From a virus: DNA of 64,000 nucleotides. The notes under the pieces were generated by a model. That model did no database searches. It was not told where the DNA came from and was given only the letters and a program-made list of their open reading frames with translations. Shown piece by piece: positions 3,210 through 46,988 of this stretch. Made by a program: the position numbers and the translations under genes. The stretch is taken from positions 1-64,000 of IMG/VR virus record IMGVR_UViG_3300032046_000001; one strand, written 5' to 3'. Numbering within the stretch: position 1 is the first letter of the stretch; every line of letters starts with the position of its first letter.

Positions 3210-6200
3210 TTAGTCACTTTCAAGCATCAAAGATGTAAAATACGCATTTAGTAAATCTCTTGCTGGATTAGCTTTTGGATATCTATATTCAGCATGTCCA
3301 GTTTGAATAATATCACTTATAATCTCGTTCTTTGTTATGTGATCGTCAGACATCGGACCAAATAATTCTTGAAGAGCTAATAAACAACCATAAGAAATGA
3401 AACTGAGAGATTCTTGTTCACCCAATCTTTGACCACCTTCGTGTCCTTTACCAGCAGTTGGTTGTAAAACTTTTCCAATAACTGGACCTGTACTACGAGA
3501 GTGAACCTTCATGTCACCCATATGCTCAAGTTTATAAATATACATATAACCGAATGGACACTCATATGAAGTATACGTCTTATACTCTGGTAAATATATT
3601 TTATATTTTGATTTTAATCCAAGTATCTTAAGAACATCACGAATCATTTTAAAATTTGGACCCTTAAATGGTGGAACTATGATTGGAAACGCATAATTCT
3701 TTTTAATTTGTTCCCACATAATTCCCATCTGAGAGTCACTTAATTTAGCCACATTATTGAGAAATCCAGTACTTATGGCCTGATTTTTCGATGTATCTAA
3801 CATTGGAAGAACTTTTCTTGCTATATCTAAAAATTCTCTTTTATTTTTAGTCTTTAAGAAAATTTCAGCTAACTTTCTTGATATTAAACCACAATACATC
3901 TCGTATACTTGTCCCATATTCATACGACTTAATATACCAAGTGGATTAATGATAAAATCAAGTTTTTCACCCCAAGGTGTTCTTGGCATTAATTCTTCTT
4001 TTTCAATTAAAGAAATTATTCCCTTATTTCCATATCGATTACAAAGTTTATCTCCAAGATTAATTATAAGTTCTTGTCTTATTTTAAATCGAATCAAGAT
4101 ACCTTCGATAACTTTACCACGATTGGTATATTTTTCTTTAGGAGGTTTATTATATTTTTTATCGGTTCTTTCAATTAGTCCATTTAACTGTATGAATTTA
4201 TTTGGATCTTCAATGTTTGAAAAAACCTCAATTTCTGCAATTAAACCACCAGGACTTTTTTTAATATATTGACCTGCTGTGATATCAGTTGTTTCGTCTT
4301 CTTCAAAACCAATCAACTCTTCAATTTCACCAATTGTTTTTCTAAGTAATGGTTCACCACGAGTTGTCATTTTACCCATATCATTTACATAGAGAAGTCT
4401 ATCTTTTTCTGATAATGTGATATCTTCTTCAACAAGATGTAATGATGTCAATTTATCTTCTTTAACCAATCTCTCATTAATAACAACACCATCATCAAAA
4501 TTATAACCTTTGTATGGAAAGATTGAAACGGCAAGTGTTCTACCAAGTGATATCATTCCATTACTGATAGAACTACCCTCGGCAATAATTGAGTCTTTTT
4601 TAACTTGTTGTCCTTTTTTAACAACTACATTAAACATACTCAACGTGTTTTTACCACTACCAGATTTTAATGGGACAGGAGTAATATTAACTTGACTCTT
4701 TTTACCATCTTTACAAATCATTGTGATCTCATCATTCGTTATTTCAGAGATACGACCATCACATGGTGCCCTCTTGATAAAACTATCAGAAAGAACACTT
4801 GGTAATATAGATTCATATCCTGTTTGAACTATAGGTGGTTCTGGATTTTTTAATGGTAATATTTGTCTTGATTGTGCAGCAGCCATGATAACTCTAGCAC
4901 CTTCATTATTTTCAATGAAAGGAATCATACATGTTGATGTACTGAGCATACCCGACTTTTCACTATTATTAAGCTCCTTAACCTTGATTAAGCCACGCGC
5001 AGATGTAAGATGGGCATCTATACTTAGTTGCTGTATAATGCCGATATTTGGACCTTCAGGTGTGTCTAATGGATCAATATTTCCAAAGTATGTACTATGA
5101 ACATTTCGAGATTCCATTTGAACTGCCTCTTTTCCAGGAATACCACCAATTGATTTTCCAACTGGTGATACTTTGGATAAAGTTGCCATCTCTTCAAGAG
5201 GATTACCATATTCCATATTAACCACAATTTCAGAATTTATAAAGTCAGATATGACCTTAGTTGGAACAATCTGAAATTTTGCATTCTTATTTCCAGCTAA
5301 TACTTGTTCTTTATAGTTGGTATAAGCAGCCAATATTTGTTTTTGTGCCAAGTGAACCAGAATTTCAGAATTTCGAATTCTCTGATTTGATAAATCATTT
5401 CTGGCTTGAACATAACCAGATATAACACGTTGTGCCATATACTTCATAATTTCATCAAGAGTTATTGGTAAATTTTGATTCATCAATACTTGACGAACAA
5501 CAGGATCAACGATATTATCAAGATTTGTTCTAACTTTATAAGTTGAATTTATTTTACCTGTAATTTTGATAATTAAATCATTAAAATATTCGTTAGTTCC
5601 AAATGGTTTGTCAATTTTATATTCGCCAACTTTAGCTCTAATAAAAGAATTCACAATTTCTTTTTTCAATTCAGTATCAACGTTCTCAAAAATTACAGTT
5701 GTATCTGAATTAATTTTAACTGCCAATTCAGCCTTTCTTGGTTTAGATTTTGATATGGTATATTTGATTCCAAAATCTTTCAAAACTTTATCAAATCCAA
5801 AACTATATGCCATCAAAACAAGAAATGGAAGTTTATAAGAGGCAATATATATTTCCAAATAATTTATCTTTTTTGTTTTCTTACTCCAAATATGAAAACT
5901 CGAATATGAACTTTCAAATTTAGCATCATATGGTTTTGGAAAAGTAATCGGATTTAATATAATTTGATTAATTAGACATTTCTTTTGTCCATTAATTCTG
6001 AATGTTCCCGACACTGGATCAATTTTTGGTAGTTCAATTTTAATCTCTTGAACATTACCGTTTAGATCCTTTAATTTAACTATCAACATAACTTCATCAG
6101 ATTTTTCAATTTCACCATACTTCATTGGTTTATCAACTATATTTAAAGACTCTACTTTAAGAGGTACTTCTTTAGTTTCCAATATTTTAAATGAATTTAA

Positions 6201-7313
6201 CATGTCTTTTTTCAAATTAATCTCAAAATCAATCTGGCGTTTTTTGAAGAGATGTGTTGGTGATTTTTCATCAACCATTTTTGGAATATTCATTGATTGA
6301 TTTACTATATTTTCAGAAGTTATGATTGTTTTTTCCTGTGGAATAATTTCATCAGCAAAGTTTTTATCAATAACTTTTAATGCAGATTCTACCTTATTTT
6401 TAGGAATCGCATCAATAATTTTAGTCGCTCTTATAATATTACCAGAAGTTTTATGTAGGATTGAACTGGCAGCTAATTTAACGATATCCTCATATGGTAC
6501 TTCTTTGGCCAAAAATCGATCTATTTTTCTCGGATCTGTTTTAAGATAAGAGACAACTGAACTTTTAACCGCTTCTTTATTTTCAGGCTTAATGAGTTTA
6601 TTATCAATTACTTTATTTGTAATTCTTCTTGATATATCATCAATTTCATTTTCAGTTTCTTCATCAATATCAATCGGAGTTATTTTACGTAACAAAGTTA
6701 TTATTTTATTTATTTGAAATTCTTTATTTTTAAAAATTAAACGATACGTTGTATTATTTTCACCAACCATTGCAAAAACAACATAATCAAATGGAAATTC
6801 AACTTTTTCATCCTTCAACATCTGAAGTATTGGAAAGAACTTCCTATTAACAAAAGAATTCATGTCTTTTGTTAAATCAACAGAATATATTAATACTTTT
6901 TGATAATTTTGTGGGAATGATAATAAAAGATTAAAACTATTTTTAATTAATACTCCAGATCGTTGACGATAATTAGTTGGTCTAAATAATGCGTCAATTT
7001 TTCCAAGATACTGTGATAAATCAAAAATAAAACTTTTATTTTCAGGAATACGTTGTTTCTGTGAATATGGTAATAAACCTAATTGTTTATATTCTTTAAT
7101 CAATTCAGTTGTAGCAATAGTACGTGGTATTTTTGTAATCGGAACAACAACTATTCTAAAATCAGCAAGTCTTAATCCAAGCTTTGGATAATCATCAACA
7201 AATCTACCATTCTCAGAAAAGTATGTGAGTAGATATGGATTATTTGGAATCAGAGGAAACGCGAGAGAATTCGCAACTTGTGAATATAATCTAAAATTAC
7301 TAAATCTTATCAT
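3210..7313 (-). CDS. rpoB: DNA-directed RNA polymerase beta subunit, full length
   Basis: 1367 residues, close to the E. coli beta length. The C-terminal two thirds carry the classic conserved blocks: DPLDTPEGPNIGII (rifampicin-pocket region), YKGYNFDDGVVINERLV, GDKLCNRYGNKGIIS with both catalytic-centre lysines, NPLGILSRMNMGQ, and HARSTG-type HSRSTGPVIGKVLQP followed by GGQRLGEQESLS near the end. The N-terminal lobe (about residues 1-350) is divergent and lysine-rich. The start overlaps the stop of the beta' C-part by four bases, so the two are translationally coupled. In phiKZ/AR9-type phage polymerases beta is itself split, so an unsplit beta is notable. No alpha or omega gene is in the window. 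Confidence 0.95.
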   Translation of the reverse strand: MIRFSNFRLYSQVANSLAFPLIPNNPYLLTYFSENGRFVDDYPKLGLRLADFRIVVVPITKIPRTIATTELIKEYKQLGLLPYSQKQRIPENKSFIFDLSQYLGKIDALFRPTNYRQRSGVLIKNSFNLLLSFPQNYQKVLIYSVDLTKDMNSFVNRKFFPILQMLKDEKVEFPFDYVVFAMVGENNTTYRLIFKNKEFQINKIITLLRKITPIDIDEETENEIDDISRRITNKVIDNKLIKPENKEAVKSSVVSYLKTDPRKIDRFLAKEVPYEDIVKLAASSILHKTSGNIIRATKIIDAIPKNKVESALKVIDKNFADEIIPQEKTIITSENIVNQSMNIPKMVDEKSPTHLFKKRQIDFEINLKKDMLNSFKILETKEVPLKVESLNIVDKPMKYGEIEKSDEVMLIVKLKDLNGNVQEIKIELPKIDPVSGTFRINGQKKCLINQIILNPITFPKPYDAKFESSYSSFHIWSKKTKKINYLEIYIASYKLPFLVLMAYSFGFDKVLKDFGIKYTISKSKPRKAELAVKINSDTTVIFENVDTELKKEIVNSFIRAKVGEYKIDKPFGTNEYFNDLIIKITGKINSTYKVRTNLDNIVDPVVRQVLMNQNLPITLDEIMKYMAQRVISGYVQARNDLSNQRIRNSEILVHLAQKQILAAYTNYKEQVLAGNKNAKFQIVPTKVISDFINSEIVVNMEYGNPLEEMATLSKVSPVGKSIGGIPGKEAVQMESRNVHSTYFGNIDPLDTPEGPNIGIIQQLSIDAHLTSARGLIKVKELNNSEKSGMLSTSTCMIPFIENNEGARVIMAAAQSRQILPLKNPEPPIVQTGYESILPSVLSDSFIKRAPCDGRISEITNDEITMICKDGKKSQVNITPVPLKSGSGKNTLSMFNVVVKKGQQVKKDSIIAEGSSISNGMISLGRTLAVSIFPYKGYNFDDGVVINERLVKEDKLTSLHLVEEDITLSEKDRLLYVNDMGKMTTRGEPLLRKTIGEIEELIGFEEDETTDITAGQYIKKSPGGLIAEIEVFSNIEDPNKFIQLNGLIERTDKKYNKPPKEKYTNRGKVIEGILIRFKIRQELIINLGDKLCNRYGNKGIISLIEKEELMPRTPWGEKLDFIINPLGILSRMNMGQVYEMYCGLISRKLAEIFLKTKNKREFLDIARKVLPMLDTSKNQAISTGFLNNVAKLSDSQMGIMWEQIKKNYAFPIIVPPFKGPNFKMIRDVLKILGLKSKYKIYLPEYKTYTSYECPFGYMYIYKLEHMGDMKVHSRSTGPVIGKVLQPTAGKGHEGGQRLGEQESLSFISYGCLLALQELFGPMSDDHITKNEIISDIIQTGHAEYRYPKANPARDLLNAYFTSLMLESD

Positions 7314-36161: not shown

Positions 36162-36881
36162 TTAACCCTTATCAAATGTGACATTGGGTAAACTACCAAG
36201 AGTCATCTTATCAACAAGATCTCTCTTCATTTCCTTACCTTCTTCTAATATTTCAGCTCCAAGAGGAATTTCACCAAACGGGGTTCTTAAATTTCCACCA
36301 CCATATCTTTGACGAATACGACCAATCAATATCATAATATCAGCAAGAGCAAGTTGACAAAATAATAATTGAAATTCATTTGGAATTTTTCTCAGATCTT
36401 CAGGATGGTTGCGTTCGTACTCAATAGTTATATTCCTAACATTAATTGGTGTTGGTGAGATGCGTACAATATTTGGATGGAAGAACTCGATCGTTCTATC
36501 GTAATTAGAGAATGTCTTCAACATACCCGCAATTTCGGTATCAAGTGCCCAACTTCTTAGTTCTCCTTGTGTAAATGGACCAAGAGGAGGAAATCCATTA
36601 ATTAAGTAATCACTCATATCTCCATACATGTTTTTAACATTGAGTATTTCCAATCCTTCTGGATCTTCAATATAGTACTCATTTCCACGTCCTGGTACTT
36701 GTGCGCTTTCAAGTAATGGATTCAAATATACTTTGTTTGTGTCAGGAAAATATCGTGAGAATTCACGAAGGGTATAATTTTTAAAATAATCGATAATTTT
36801 AGAATCATCTAATTCCAGAACCATGAATGAAAATCCTAAATTATCTTTTATATACTCTAAGACGCGCGTCTGAGTTAACAA
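36162..36881 (-). CDS. Virion protein, possible neck/head-completion protein
   Basis: 239 residues if translation starts at TTG 36881, which has AAGGAG seven bases upstream inside the HNH gene; a longer TTG start at 36908 is possible. The sequence (VLEYIKDNLGFSFMVLELDD, TLREFSRYFPDTNKVYL, LLFCQLALADIMILIGRIRQ, TPFGEIPLGAEILEEGKE) resembles conserved virion proteins of T4-like and other large myoviruses placed near the neck. No family name can be given with certainty. It overlaps the HNH gene end by seven bases. Confidence 0.6.
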   Translation of the reverse strand: MLTQTRVLEYIKDNLGFSFMVLELDDSKIIDYFKNYTLREFSRYFPDTNKVYLNPLLESAQVPGRGNEYYIEDPEGLEILNVKNMYGDMSDYLINGFPPLGPFTQGELRSWALDTEIAGMLKTFSNYDRTIEFFHPNIVRISPTPINVRNITIEYERNHPEDLRKIPNEFQLLFCQLALADIMILIGRIRQRYGGGNLRTPFGEIPLGAEILEEGKEMKRDLVDKMTLGSLPNVTFDKG

Positions 36882-37567
36882 TGGATGTCTCCTTCTATTA
36901 ATGACCAACCTTTCCCAGATTTTATTCTAGAAACTGTTGATATACTAATGTTAAATATATTACTAATTTCTTTTTGAGTTATCTTTAACTGTTTTATAAT
37001 AGGAGAATTTGTAATTTTGTAAATAACTACAACTTGCCATTCTTTTAATTTAGAATTCGAATTATTTTCTCCTACATTTTTTTGACTTATTTTTAATTTT
37101 GTTTTGTTAGAAAGAAATTTTCCAATTCGTTTATTTCTCATTATTTCTTTTGATTTATTCGAATGTTTTTTTCCAAACATTGGATTCGACTCATCTTTAT
37201 TACCATTAATCATATGAAACACTCTATGTTCTTTTTTAGTCATTAAATTTAAATTTTCATAATAATTATCTTCTTTATTTTCATTAATATGATGAATACA
37301 CTCGTTTGATTTTAATTTATAATTATTAAAAATTTCAAATAGTAAAATATGAATTGACTTATTTTTAACTTTTCGATTTTTACACAAAACAATATAAAAA
37401 TATCCACTACTATCTTTATTTTGTCTTAATATTCTTCCTTCTTTGTATCTTTTAAAACTTTTAACTCTACCAAGATTACTGACTTGATAATCTGGATAAT
37501 CTTCTATAGTTTTCCAAACTTCATTTTCTAAATCACTAATGTCTAAATTTTCAAATATTTTAATCAT
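36875..37567 (-). CDS. HNH homing endonuclease
   Basis: 230 residues from ATG 37567 (MIKIFENLDISDLENEVW). NUMOD4 (EVWKTIEDYPDYQVSNLGRV), HNH core (ECIHHINENKEDNYYENLNL), NUMOD3-like (KHSNKSKEIMRNKRIGKF) and HTH (TQKEISNIFNISISTVSRIK). It shares the SPIIKQLKITQ linker with the HNH gene at 17874. A structured RNA (37606-37661) lies directly upstream. Its 3' end carries the SD of the following virion gene. Confidence 0.9.
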   Translation of the reverse strand: MIKIFENLDISDLENEVWKTIEDYPDYQVSNLGRVKSFKRYKEGRILRQNKDSSGYFYIVLCKNRKVKNKSIHILLFEIFNNYKLKSNECIHHINENKEDNYYENLNLMTKKEHRVFHMINGNKDESNPMFGKKHSNKSKEIMRNKRIGKFLSNKTKLKISQKNVGENNSNSKLKEWQVVVIYKITNSPIIKQLKITQKEISNIFNISISTVSRIKSGKGWSLIEGDIHC

Positions 37568-37605
37568 TTTATAATCGCCTGTCAATTATTTCCTGAAATT
37601 AATTT

Positions 37606-37661
37606 AAAGAGAGCAGGAAGTTCAGGATTACTTCTTTTCGACGGCCAATCTATCTCTCTTT
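37606..37661 (-). ncRNA. Three-way-junction RNA element, copy B
   Basis: Minus strand: an 8-bp outer stem (AAAGAGAG with CUCUCUUU), AUA, a short hairpin GA/UC with loop U plus UGGCCG (self-complementary if the end U-G wobble is allowed), GAAAA, a second hairpin GAAGU/ACUUC, then CUG. It lies directly after the stop at 37667 and before the HNH gene at 37567. Confidence 0.7.
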
Positions 37662-37666
37662 TTTAT

Positions 37667-38002
37667 TTAAATGCTATTCCATAATACCATTGCTCTTTCT
37701 TTTCGTGGAACTTCTTGTTTTTCGCGTTCTATATCTAATTCGAGTTTCTTTTTTAATGGTGTTATTTCATCTATTTTTTTACCACATCTTAAACAAATTT
37801 TTTTGATATATCGTTTATCAAAATCTATAGGATCTTTTATTAATCTACAAGGTGGGGATTCTGGAGGCATAGGACGACCGTCAGTTATTTTTTTACAGTC
37901 TTCAAGATATCTTTGATGATGTTTTATATTACTTATTAATTGTACTTCTGTAATTCTTTCTAATATTTCCCAATCATGAAAACCTAATTTACACCAGTTC
38001 AT
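37667..38002 (-). CDS. Small zinc-ribbon protein, DUF1660-like
   Basis: 111 residues. The opening MNWCKLGFHDWEIL and a later ICLRCGKKIDE give a split Cys/His set like the small phage proteins with a 'GHDW...C-x2-CG' pattern. A 45-residue insert separates the two halves. Overlaps the PurC gene by 14 bases. Function unknown. Confidence 0.62.
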   Translation of the reverse strand: MNWCKLGFHDWEILERITEVQLISNIKHHQRYLEDCKKITDGRPMPPESPPCRLIKDPIDFDKRYIKKICLRCGKKIDEITPLKKKLELDIEREKQEVPRKERAMVLWNSI

Positions 38003-38882
38003 TATCTAATATATCTCTTGTCTCACTTCGAATCGTATAATCATTATCATTTTTAGATTCATAAACTTGAAGGAGTCCATAAGTCAAATCAAATAATCTT
38101 CTAATCTTGGCATATACTTCTTTAGTATCACCTAAGTCTCTTCGAAAAACATCTTTATCTAATTTTTCATTAGTCTTGAGATCCCACAAACGACAAGTAT
38201 CAGGTGATATTTCATCAGCTAATATAAGATGTTGATCTTCAGTTCTGTGACCAAATTCGAGTTTCATATCGACCAGTAAAATTCCATGTTTTTCAAAAAA
38301 TTCTTTGATGTGAATATTGATAAGTTTAGTTAAATTTTTTATTTTGAATAAAATAATATCAACTTTACACTTATATATTGGAAGATATTCTTTTTCAGTT
38401 GGAACCTTTCTTATTAATCCCAATTTTCTAATATGGTCTTCTGTAATCATTGGATCGTCCAATTCATCACTTTTATAATAATACTCTATAATAGGTTCAA
38501 CTATTGGTGTTCCTTCTTCTATATCAAGTCTTTTTGATAAACTTCCAGCAACAACATTTCGAACAACAACTTCAATTGGAAGTATATTGACTCTATTAAC
38601 TAACATCTCCCTATCATTTAATTTAGTAATAAAATGAGTACTGATGTTATTACTGTGCAAATGAGAAAATAATATAGATGAAGAACTATTATTACAAATA
38701 CCCTTATCTTCAATTACAGCCTTCTTCTTTCCATTGAAAGCTGTTGCGTCATCATTAAATCGTTGTATTAAAATATTAGGATCATTAGTTTCAAATAATG
38801 TCTTTGCCTTACCAGAATAAAGTTCTTTTCCTCTTTTAATATGACCCCATTTAGGATCAGTATAATCAAATAAATCGTTCAT
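37989..38882 (-). CDS. purC: SAICAR synthetase (PurC)
   Basis: 297 residues from ATG 38882, preceded by GAGGAG. The family is clear: ELYSGKAKTLFETND, FNDDATAFNGKKK, SKRLDIEEGTPI, VDMKLEFGHRTEDQHLILAD, and EISPDTCRLWD. The enzyme joins aspartate to CAIR with ATP, a middle step of purine synthesis. In the phage it would act as an auxiliary metabolic gene to raise purine supply. No other pur gene is seen in this window. It lies just downstream of the 5'-3' exonuclease gene. Confidence 0.93.
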   Translation of the reverse strand: MNDLFDYTDPKWGHIKRGKELYSGKAKTLFETNDPNILIQRFNDDATAFNGKKKAVIEDKGICNNSSSSILFSHLHSNNISTHFITKLNDREMLVNRVNILPIEVVVRNVVAGSLSKRLDIEEGTPIVEPIIEYYYKSDELDDPMITEDHIRKLGLIRKVPTEKEYLPIYKCKVDIILFKIKNLTKLINIHIKEFFEKHGILLVDMKLEFGHRTEDQHLILADEISPDTCRLWDLKTNEKLDKDVFRRDLGDTKEVYAKIRRLFDLTYGLLQVYESKNDNDYTIRSETRDILDNELV

Positions 38883-38889
38883 ATTCTCC

Positions 38890-40035
38890 TCAAAAATTCT
38901 CAAAATCAAAATCACTTCTATTAGAAAATAAGATATCAACATCTTCTTCTAATACTTCTACATTCCCTTTTCTTAGTGCCTTGTACATTGTATTTGACTC
39001 GGTGAAATTATCATTATTCAAAATATTAGTCACATAGTTTCTTTTAGCGATAATTTCTGTATTCGGTGGATCTTTAAAAACTTCGGATATTATTTTAAAC
39101 CACACCAATCTTAAATTATTAGATATAATTGAAGTTTTATTTTCTTCTTCAATTATTTTTGATATAGTTTTATCATTACTATTTTTTATAAATATTTTTT
39201 TCTTATTGAGAACATTATGATATAAATCTTCCATACTACCAACACACTCAATTAGACCACTGATTATTTTTGGAATGGTTTTAGGACCAATACTTTTAAT
39301 CTTAGGAACATCATCAGTTTTATCACCAAGTACAGCCATAACCAATGGAAAATATTTATCTGGTATGTCAACTTTAAATTTTAAATATGTTGACATAATT
39401 TCACCTTTTTTAACTATCTTTATTTTCTGACCTGATTTACAAAATTGATATATGTCACTTCCGAGAGAAATAGTCTGAAATAAATCATGATCATTTGAAT
39501 AAATTATATTACATGAATCTTGTAATGTAATCAATGAATTACTTATAAGATAGTATGGAATAAAATCAGCTTCGAAATTTTGTAACAAAAATAATTTACA
39601 ACTTGGAATTTTATTTATAACTTTTTCGGATAATTTCAAATTATTTTGAATAGTAGAAAAAAATACATCTTTGTCTATTTGATTAAGATTAAATAAATCA
39701 CCAATTTTACGATTACTTTTATAATTTTTATCAATATTCGTATGATAATATGAATGTCCCATTTCTGCGAAAAATATGAAATTAATATCGAGACTACGTT
39801 TTATCGCATATTTTTTATGGAATGAAAGAAAAGATATCAAAGACTCAAAAATAGAAGTATCAATAAATTTAGAATATTTTGTAGATTCTACAATATTAAC
39901 AACAAATTCTTCCAAATAGAGACAATTTAAGATGTTACGTAAATCTATAAATAAATTTAAAATTTTATAATTATTAGAATATGATAAAATGTTGTCTAAA
40001 ATCGAATATGTGGGGTAATAAGAAATGACGTTCAT
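38890..40035 (-). CDS. 5'-3' exonuclease / flap endonuclease (T4 RNase H-like)
   Basis: 381 residues from ATG 40035. The FEN/5'-nuclease layout is visible: an early LFIDLRNILN, FFAEMGHSYYHTNIDKNYKS, an acidic FEADFIPYYLI, IIYSNDHDLFQ, and AVLGDKTDDVPKIKSIGPKTI, which is the helix-hairpin-helix. It removes RNA primers and flaps in lagging-strand synthesis. The start overlaps the end of a 17-codon remnant of a GIY-YIG gene (40032-40085), in the same style as intact homing genes overlap their neighbours. The start at 40050 would lie inside the remnant. Confidence 0.85.
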   Translation of the reverse strand: MNVISYYPTYSILDNILSYSNNYKILNLFIDLRNILNCLYLEEFVVNIVESTKYSKFIDTSIFESLISFLSFHKKYAIKRSLDINFIFFAEMGHSYYHTNIDKNYKSNRKIGDLFNLNQIDKDVFFSTIQNNLKLSEKVINKIPSCKLFLLQNFEADFIPYYLISNSLITLQDSCNIIYSNDHDLFQTISLGSDIYQFCKSGQKIKIVKKGEIMSTYLKFKVDIPDKYFPLVMAVLGDKTDDVPKIKSIGPKTIPKIISGLIECVGSMEDLYHNVLNKKKIFIKNSNDKTISKIIEEENKTSIISNNLRLVWFKIISEVFKDPPNTEIIAKRNYVTNILNNDNFTESNTMYKALRKGNVEVLEEDVDILFSNRSDFDFENF

Positions 40036-40085
40036 AACTGTCCTGACCATCGAGGATCTAAATAAGTATAAATATAATAATTCAT
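40032..40085 (-). pseudogene. Remnant of a GIY-YIG homing endonuclease gene (17 codons)
   Basis: Encodes MNYYIYTYLDPRWSGQL then stop. This matches the first residues of the intact GIY-YIG protein at 34470-35219 (MNKFYIYIYLDPRKSGRY). The SD (GGAG) and ATG are kept. The rest of the endonuclease is gone. Its stop codon overlaps the exonuclease ATG (TTATGA), so it may now act as a leader peptide for coupled translation. Confidence 0.75.
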
Positions 40086-40119: not shown

Positions 40120-40178
40120 AAAGAGAGAAGGAAGTTCAGGATTACTTCTTTTTCGAGCTTAAGTCTCTATCTCTCTTA
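40120..40178 (-). ncRNA. Three-way-junction RNA element, copy C
   Basis: Minus strand: outer stem AAGAGAG with CUCUCUU, AUA, hairpin GAG/CUC with loop A plus the palindrome CUUAAG, GAAAAA, second hairpin GAAGU/ACUUC, then CUU. It lies right after the stop at 40186 and before the GIY-YIG remnant. The second hairpin is the same as in copy B. Confidence 0.7.
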
Positions 40179-45313: not shown

Positions 45314-46297
45314 CTATAGATTCAAATAATCTAAAATCTCATTTATATTTGTTGAATTTATTCCAATTTTACCAACTACAATACCAGCCACTATATTCGC
45401 CAATTCAACTGATTCTTCTAATGACAATATTTCTGATAAATATGATAATGTAAGTGTTGATATTACTGTATCACCCGCACCACTTACATCATAAACTTCT
45501 TTAGCTTTAGTTGGTAAACTTATCATTTTGTGTCCATCGTTTCTTATAATAGATATTCCATCTTTTCCCCGTGTAACTATAAGATAATCAAGATTTAATT
45601 TATGATATAATTTCATTCCAGCTTTATATATTTTATCTTCAGTATCAACAACCATCTTAGAAATTTTTGATAGTTCTTTTAAATTGGGTGTTAAAAAATT
45701 GGCATTTTTATATTTAAGATAATTAGATCCTTTAGGATCTATAAAAATTAATTTATTATTTTTTTTACACGTATTAATTATTTTCTGAGTCAATTTAAAA
45801 GTCAAAACTCCTTTTAAATAATCAGAAATAATAACTGCCGAACATTTGTCAATATGACTATTGACAAATTCTAATATTAATTTTTCTAATTTAGAATCTA
45901 TTTCTCTCGTTGATTCTTTATCAAATCTAATTAATTGATAATTTTCTGAAAAAATTCTATTTTTTATTGTTGTTGGTCTGTCATAATCTATAAAAATACC
46001 ATCAATTGAACACACATTCTTTAATTTATTTAATACAAATTCTCCATTTGAATCATTTCCGATTATTCCACATGGAATAACATTTCCACCTAATGATAGT
46101 ATATTAGATATAACATTTCCACTTCCACCAATCATTTTAAAAGTTTTTTCAATATCCACAATAGGAACTGGAAATTCTGGAGAAATGCGTTCTACTTTAC
46201 CAATAATATATTTATCTACCATAATATCTCCAATAACTAATATATTATGATAATTAAATTTAGAAAATATATTTTTAATTTTTTCTTTACTGAACAT
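45314..46297 (-). CDS. hldA: D-glycero-beta-D-manno-heptose-7-phosphate kinase (HldA/RfaE1-like)
   Basis: 327 residues, PfkB family. ILVIGDIMVDKYIIGKVERI and SPEFPVPIVD are signatures of the HldE kinase domain. GGSGNVISNILSLGG and the anion-hole motif DVSGAGDTVIS (about residues 268-278) are intact. The adenylyltransferase domain of full HldE is absent. The enzyme phosphorylates heptose-7-phosphate at C1 on the route to ADP-heptose. With the GT9 gene at 62194 it suggests the phage supplies heptose for LPS-like glycan change. The start lies in the end of the HNH gene (CAT-GTT codons). Confidence 0.87.
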   Translation of the reverse strand: MFSKEKIKNIFSKFNYHNILVIGDIMVDKYIIGKVERISPEFPVPIVDIEKTFKMIGGSGNVISNILSLGGNVIPCGIIGNDSNGEFVLNKLKNVCSIDGIFIDYDRPTTIKNRIFSENYQLIRFDKESTREIDSKLEKLILEFVNSHIDKCSAVIISDYLKGVLTFKLTQKIINTCKKNNKLIFIDPKGSNYLKYKNANFLTPNLKELSKISKMVVDTEDKIYKAGMKLYHKLNLDYLIVTRGKDGISIIRNDGHKMISLPTKAKEVYDVSGAGDTVISTLTLSYLSEILSLEESVELANIVAGIVVGKIGINSTNINEILDYLNL

Positions 46298-46901
46298 GAT
46301 ACCAGATTTTTCCTCTTTTTATATCCGAAATCGTTATTCTACTAACTCCAAACATGTCAGCTATTTCTTGTTGGGTTAATATTCCTTCTTTTAATAATAA
46401 TTTTATTTGAATTACTTGTTCTTCTGTTAATTTGTGTTGTGGATGATTTTCACCTTTATAATTTAATTTTCCACTTTTAAACTCTTCTTTTCTCGTTTTA
46501 CTTATTTTAATTTTTGTTTCATTTAATAATATTTTTCCTTTGTTATGATATTTTGAGTGTCTTGAATGTGGTTCAGATTTCAAATTATCAATAAAATTAT
46601 TTTCTTTATCTTCGTTTGTATGATGAACATCATAATTTTTTTCTAATTTTTTGTTGAAAGTTTCATAAACTAATCGATGAATAACTTTAGTTTTAGATTT
46701 CTTATTCTTATTATGTAAATCAACATAAAAATATCCCTTATGATTTCTACACTGTTTTAATATTCTACAATCAGTACCTTTCCATTTTATAAAACTTTTA
46801 ATTCTCCCAAGATTACTAACTTGATATTCTGGATATTCTTCAATAGTTTTCCAAACTTCATTTTCTAAATCATTAATATCTAAATTTTCATATATTTTCA
46901 T
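46287..46901 (-). CDS. HNH homing endonuclease
   Basis: 204 residues from ATG 46901 with AAGGAG upstream; a start at 46952 would run into the RNA element. NUMOD4 (EVWKTIEEYPEYQVSNLGRI), HNH core (NYDVHHTNEDKENNFIDNLK), then the HTH tail (GILTQQEIADMFGVSRITIS) shared with the genes at 22448 and 34470. Its final codons (WYHVQ) contain the start codon of the kinase gene in another frame. The RNA element 46935-46988 is directly upstream. Confidence 0.9.
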   Translation of the reverse strand: MKIYENLDINDLENEVWKTIEEYPEYQVSNLGRIKSFIKWKGTDCRILKQCRNHKGYFYVDLHNKNKKSKTKVIHRLVYETFNKKLEKNYDVHHTNEDKENNFIDNLKSEPHSRHSKYHNKGKILLNETKIKISKTRKEEFKSGKLNYKGENHPQHKLTEEQVIQIKLLLKEGILTQQEIADMFGVSRITISDIKRGKIWYHVQ

Positions 46902-46934
46902 TATAACTCCTTGTATTATTTTCCTTGAATGATT

Positions 46935-46988
46935 AAAGAGAGCAGGTAGCAAGGTCTACTTTTCGAGCGATCGACTCTATCTCTCTTA
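46935..46988 (-). ncRNA. Three-way-junction RNA element, copy D
   Basis: Minus strand: outer stem AAGAGAG with CUCUCUU, AUA, hairpin GAG/CUC with loop U plus the palindrome CGAUCG, GAAAA, second hairpin GUAG/CUAC with loop ACCUUG, then CUG. It starts five bases after the stop of the baseplate gene at 46993 and ends about 34 bases before the HNH start. Confidence 0.72.

Follow-up and report, generated by a model that had tools for sequence, protein, structure and literature searches.

The RNA element that precedes homing endonuclease genes in the phage studied here belongs to the int-alpA RNA family (Rfam RF02996), and on balance we think it likely that this RNA is a cis-acting translational control leader, a two-state switch whose balance would be shifted by dimerisation through its P2 loop. 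The DNA analysed, referred to as the window, is a stretch of 64,000 nucleotides at the start of a virus record 312,420 bases long. A preliminary description had placed four copies of a three-way-junction RNA on the minus strand of the window, and all four are present with the fold and at the coordinates that it gave. Its statement that no described RNA family matches was wrong, as copy 2 passes the gathering score of RF02996.

Copies in the phage record

The four copies, their parts and the genes that follow them all lie on the minus strand. Copy 4 (46935-46988; 52.0 bits with our model R1) has a P1 helix formed by 46987-46981 and 46942-46936. Its P2 loop (46968-46974) reads T followed by the palindrome CGATCG, which we propose from the letters as a kissing site. 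The P3 loop ACCUUG (46950-46955) is the complement of two sites, each reading CAAGG: site A, just 3′ of P1 (46923-46927), and site B (46909-46913), which overlaps the Shine-Dalgarno sequence AAGGAG (46912-46907). A further hairpin, P4 (AUAA...UUAU; 46903-46919), read directly in this copy and supported by family-wide tests, holds site B and the Shine-Dalgarno within its loop, and a NUMOD4-HNH homing endonuclease gene follows at 46287-46901. Copy 2 (37606-37661), identified by both R1 and the Rfam match, has the P2 loop TTGGCCG, the P3 loop AAUCCUGA and a leader (37568-37605) with site A UCAGGA and the Shine-Dalgarno region GACAGGCG, and is likewise followed by a NUMOD4-HNH homing endonuclease gene (36875-37567). 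The same type of gene (486-1112) stands 3′ of copy 1 (1156-1210), which has the P2 loop A+TGATCA, the P3 loop AACCAGUA and a leader (1113-1155) with site A UUACUGGU and the Shine-Dalgarno region AACUGGAG. Copy 3 (40120-40178) combines the P2 loop A+CTTAAG with the P3 loop AAUCCUGA. In copies 2 and 3 the P3 loop CCUGA faces sites reading CAGG, and in copy 1 the loop ACCAGUA faces sites reading ACUGG.

The preliminary description had read the P2 loops of the four copies with the same letters (A+TGATCA, T(+)TGGCCG, A+CTTAAG and T+CGATCG for copies 1 to 4), and had set each copy after a stop codon and before an endonuclease gene or its remnant. Both points hold: the upstream reading frames end at 1265, 37667, 40186 and 46993 for copies 1 to 4, and the genes that follow are three NUMOD4-HNH genes and one truncated frame. 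The latter, 3′ of copy 3 (40032-40085), starts at 40085 and reads MNYYIYTYLDPRWSGQL up to its stop; it is assigned as a GIY-YIG-type endonuclease remnant by its resemblance to intact GIY-YIG proteins encoded 3′ of two further copies (those on L127 and L136). Copy 3 is itself intact while this frame is truncated, a leader outliving its gene. The outer stem AAGAGAG/CUCUCUU is a feature of this phage and not of the RNA in general, P1 being built elsewhere from other, compensated sequences.

Over the whole record, the exact core pattern gave 10 matches, against 0 with the pattern reversed, and looser searches raised the number of copies to 14. R1 recovers 13 of these along with relatives, and the 14th came from the structure scan. 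Every one of the 14 is followed by an endonuclease gene or remnant (ten NUMOD4-HNH, two GIY-YIG-type, two truncated frames). The record bears a heavy load of 24 NUMOD4 genes; the element stands before only 10 of them and is absent before 14.

Several copies (genome positions ~74,600, 172,520, 181,380 and 244,720), and also the one on contig L202, have the sequence GGGAACAAA(A/T) a few to ~15 nt 5′ of the element, which may be the 5′ border of a mobile endonuclease unit or part of a promoter. The phage also encodes a SAICAR synthetase of purine synthesis (window 37989-38942) and a divergent RNA polymerase beta subunit (window 3210-7313), whose best matches in phage records have about 22-33% identity. 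A search for relatives with the polymerase subunit found none, and no copy of the element was recovered when the locus was compared with phages by BLAST. Within the gene at 45314-46297, the DNA at window positions 46150-46276 is 77% identical to a 735-kb uncultured phage (LR756501.1).

Family membership, fold and downstream genes

The RF02996 match in the window covers 37592-37660 (copy 2) and scores 36.6 bits against a gathering score of 35.8. A first Rfam scan of the whole window reported nothing at the gathering score, the match appearing only with smaller input or laxer filters. Elsewhere in the record, genome positions 172555-172622 score 36.6 bits, above the cut-off, and 181410-181481 score 33.4, below it. 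In all, only 2 of the 14 record copies reach the cut-off; the others fall below it or have no reported match, and are joined to the family via R1. Five related contigs also exceed it (L270 with 47.6 bits, L308 with 43.8, L399 with 42.5, L282 with 39.6 and L402 with 37.9). The Rfam consensus is GC-rich. Members share with it the same three-way junction and its core, UAG...CGAAAAG...CCU, and in E. coli the copies have an integrase gene on one side and a satellite gene on the other. The family takes its name from such a context, the adjoining integrase or alpA genes of proteobacterial prophages, which is not part of the model; the E. coli copies are found in it, and the window copies, set before homing endonucleases in a jumbo phage record, are not. 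Unlike the element as drawn here, the 71-nt Rfam model ends at site A, without P4, site B or start codon, and Rfam labels the family an sRNA (Gene; sRNA), whereas the present evidence points to a cis leader. The homing-endonuclease leaders and the conserved self-complementarity of the P2 loop are new relative to the Rfam entry. In the literature searched, to which the original family description did not belong, we found no function for int-alpA RNA and only its mention as a list entry.

Relatives were gathered by scanning viral contigs with patterns that fixed the junction only (in some cases with one P2 pair or part of P1 in addition) and that put no constraint on the loops of P2 and P3 or on the sequence further downstream. 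Matches were kept only if P1 and P3 could pair, and two uncertain ones were removed. The resulting sample has at least 139 members in at least 114 clusters below 70% identity, from which core variants are missing because members were found by exact core patterns. It spans AT-rich and GC-rich phages and E. coli satellites, and further copies occur in E. coli prophages. A first loose pattern scan of viral contigs had returned chance matches only, and all 43 pattern matches in bacterial genomes were judged to be chance. A survey of ~1050 bacterial genomes with R1 found no copy among the candidates scored, which were only ~15-19 of several hundred per genome. R1 was built from 12 members, and its E-values are rough. 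A model-based alignment was used in place of an initial MAFFT one, whose 3′ half was of low quality.

Across 57 members, standard pairs occupy 94.4% of the cells of the three helices, and the covariation score is 0.803, compared with 0.199 for shuffles and 0.09-0.18 for slid controls. The stems of the preliminary description are borne out by this covariation, which together with the pattern counts (10 against 0 reversed) puts the fold far beyond chance. Its wider claim, a structured RNA tied to homing endonucleases, is supported by the same covariation and by all 14 record copies, with the restriction that the family also precedes genes of other kinds.

Among 130 downstream proteins, the Pfam domains found were HNH_3 (38), NUMOD4 (20), NUMOD3 (18), AP2 (11) and DUF4379 (10), with the GIY-YIG-type domains T5orf172, LEM-3, MUG113 and GIY-YIG at 3-5 each. 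Glycosyltransferases and helicases account for a minority of these proteins, and a large number have no assignment. Of the downstream groups that could be identified, genes of homing-endonuclease type form the largest, but the element is not confined to them. In the E. coli satellites the RNA keeps the same cis position, with an open frame after it; the next gene encodes a ~300-aa protein without a Pfam match and lies between the integrase and an HTH gene. In six E. coli prophage genomes the next gene is hypothetical, and in the two that were examined it is found between antitermination and holin genes.

The joints of the junction between P1, P2 and P3 (UA, GAAAA and CU) are conserved, and these single-stranded bases are nearly invariant across phages with completely different stems. 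Such constancy favours the main rival to the switch model, in which a ligand or protein acts on the junction: the RNA would be a riboswitch-like or protein-controlled leader whose junction, by binding a metabolite or a protein of phage or host, decides whether the Shine-Dalgarno is covered, P2 kissing being scaffolding. A P3-loop/Shine-Dalgarno pseudoknot is, moreover, the standard layout of translational riboswitches, and the preQ1-III riboswitch, in which a hairpin loop likewise pairs with the downstream Shine-Dalgarno strand, has been crystallised as a domain-swapped dimer (PMC7357161). int-alpA RNA differs from these riboswitches in that it matches no Rfam riboswitch, is without a known ligand and has its target site duplicated. 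The genes that it precedes (endonucleases, glycosyltransferases, helicases and satellite proteins) suggest no common metabolite, and the self-complementarity of the P2 loop would be left unexplained. We regard this explanation as credible but unlikely. The conserved junction could still be a ligand or protein site, something that the switch model does not need.

P3 loop pairings and the next gene

Pairing of the P3 loop with the Shine-Dalgarno region and with its duplicate is absent from the preliminary description and new here. Site A lies 3-13 nt 3′ of P1. At least one P3-loop complement of 4 nt or longer is found in 98% of the 114 clusters, compared with 59% when loops are swapped, and two separate complements of this length in 94%, compared with 25% (maximum 36%). 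The predicted pairing of the P3 loop amounts to −6.4 kcal/mol with site A and −6.5 kcal/mol with site B, the swapped values being −2.3 and −3.7 kcal/mol. A residue remains for site B after swapping because C/U-rich loops will match any Shine-Dalgarno to some extent; since site B is necessarily Shine-Dalgarno-like, part of its match is trivial, and the swap null (25%, −3.7 kcal/mol) measures that part. The two pairings share P3-loop bases in 91 of 95 cases, and because each needs the same bases they are mutually exclusive.

Between site A and the start codon, the P4 hairpin attains a score of at least 6 in 62% of leaders, compared with 17% of shuffled ones. It mostly begins 0-1 nt after site A, and in 64 of 75 cases its loop includes site B. 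The P3 loop with site B, together with P4, is thus a predicted structure able to pair with the Shine-Dalgarno of an endonuclease gene. A comparable arrangement is known for the homing endonucleases of T4 and Aeh1 (I-TevI, I-TevII, I-TevIII, segB and mobE), in which RNA hairpins sequester the ribosome-binding site (PMC2988022). There too, an RNA structure 5′ of the gene is able to hide the Shine-Dalgarno; those structures are simple hairpins whose effect a late promoter relieves, whereas int-alpA RNA is one three-way-junction family common to many endonuclease types, with two alternative pairings.

An open frame follows 135 of the 139 members (the sample being of at least that size), with the start codon mostly 24-45 nt 3′ of P1. 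This fixed layout indicates a cis action of the RNA on the gene that follows. It also makes improbable a trans-acting small RNA whose loop targets other messages, the reading in keeping with Rfam's class for RF02996: besides the nearly fixed distance of the start codon, the P3 loop co-varies with the leader of its own gene, and no terminator-like U run was seen after P1 in the members read.

P2 loops and the proposed switch

A 4-nt palindrome is present in the P2 loop of 87 of the 114 clusters and in 40 of 45 distinct loops of the same sample, while letter shuffles of these 45 loops gave a mean of 16.2 and a maximum of 28 palindromic loops (2000 shuffles). Among loops of 7 nt, all 24 distinct sequences have their palindrome in a single register, positions 3-6 (shuffles: mean 2.7, maximum 9; 5000 shuffles). 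Loops contain a self-complementary stretch of at least 4 nt in 89% of cases; between different loops the figure is 10%. Because one loop, CGGCCA, dominates the gammaproteobacterial group (30 clusters), the evidence from variable sequence rests on the others. Within the phage record, the copy at genome position 205,439 (L134:1382-1440) is the only one whose loop, AATCACGA, falls short of a proper palindrome, and it has in addition a weakened closing pair in P2 (CUU for CUC).

The loops without a palindrome are mainly of two fixed types, C-GACG-G (~20 clusters) and U-UAGC-G (6 clusters). GACG tetraloops of murine retroviral RNA form kissing homodimers in which C:G′ and G:C′ are the only pairs and an adenosine is stacked (PMC7357161; PMC5874298). 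The six TTAGCG clusters have only a GC dinucleotide for self-pairing, which by our own comparison stands at the same place as the kissing bases of GACG and may be analogous to them. Non-palindromic loops are not as common as palindromic ones, and the self-complementarity that the preliminary description had seen in four copies is kept family-wide through sequence change, as in kissing-loop homodimers. As a prediction from this comparison of sequences, P2 kissing is well supported.

In HIV-1, a six-base palindrome forms the retroviral dimer-initiation loop (DIS). Both retroviral forms, palindromic six-mers and GACG tetraloops, occur at one place in the int-alpA family. The retroviral loops belong to unrelated genomic RNAs and serve the packaging of two genomes, and the likeness is one of motif, not kinship. 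The P2 palindromes could instead be symmetric DNA or RNA sites for a dimeric protein, for example the endonuclease, and they do often resemble the six-base palindromes of restriction sites. We give this still less credence than a trans-acting RNA, as the loops differ between copies that precede closely similar endonucleases in one genome, and the GACG class is not palindromic yet is a known RNA kissing motif (PMC7357161). A self-cleaving ribozyme is very improbable: hammerheads also have a three-way junction with a GAAA-type joint and occur in prophages near integrase genes (PMC3088659), but the CUGANGA core is missing from the members read, none of the ribozyme models of Rfam, hammerhead included, reached threshold, and cleavage would leave the co-varying Shine-Dalgarno unexplained.

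In the cis-acting leader that we favour, two nearly balanced states would compete. Pairing of the P3 loop with site B would hide the Shine-Dalgarno (OFF) and pairing with site A would leave it free (ON), although which state is ON is a guess. Two mRNAs could join via their P2 loops, and homodimerisation, judged from the loop sequences, probably modulates the switch: the dimer would bias the choice between site A and site B, so that translation would track transcript abundance. Such dependence on abundance would be fitting for endonuclease genes, which other phages express at a low level or at set times. More tentatively, int-alpA RNA may represent an mRNA leader, widespread in phages, whose working form is a homodimer: like copies would recognise each other via private palindromic loops, the dimer would flip the P3 loop between decoy and Shine-Dalgarno, and a selfish gene would be translated according to the concentration of its own transcript. 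Should the dimer prove real, these leaders would join a small number of natural mRNAs of bacteria or phages under the control of RNA homodimers, and mobile endonuclease genes would have a general means to limit their own expression.

With the anatomy described here, int-alpA RNA can be tested as a translational switch, and E. coli prophages and satellites carry copies of it. In two of the prophages, L581 (~6001-6087) and L582 (~4001-4087), the element is flanked by the antitermination gene and the gene that precedes the holin, a position near the start of the late operon that makes a convenient laboratory test case.
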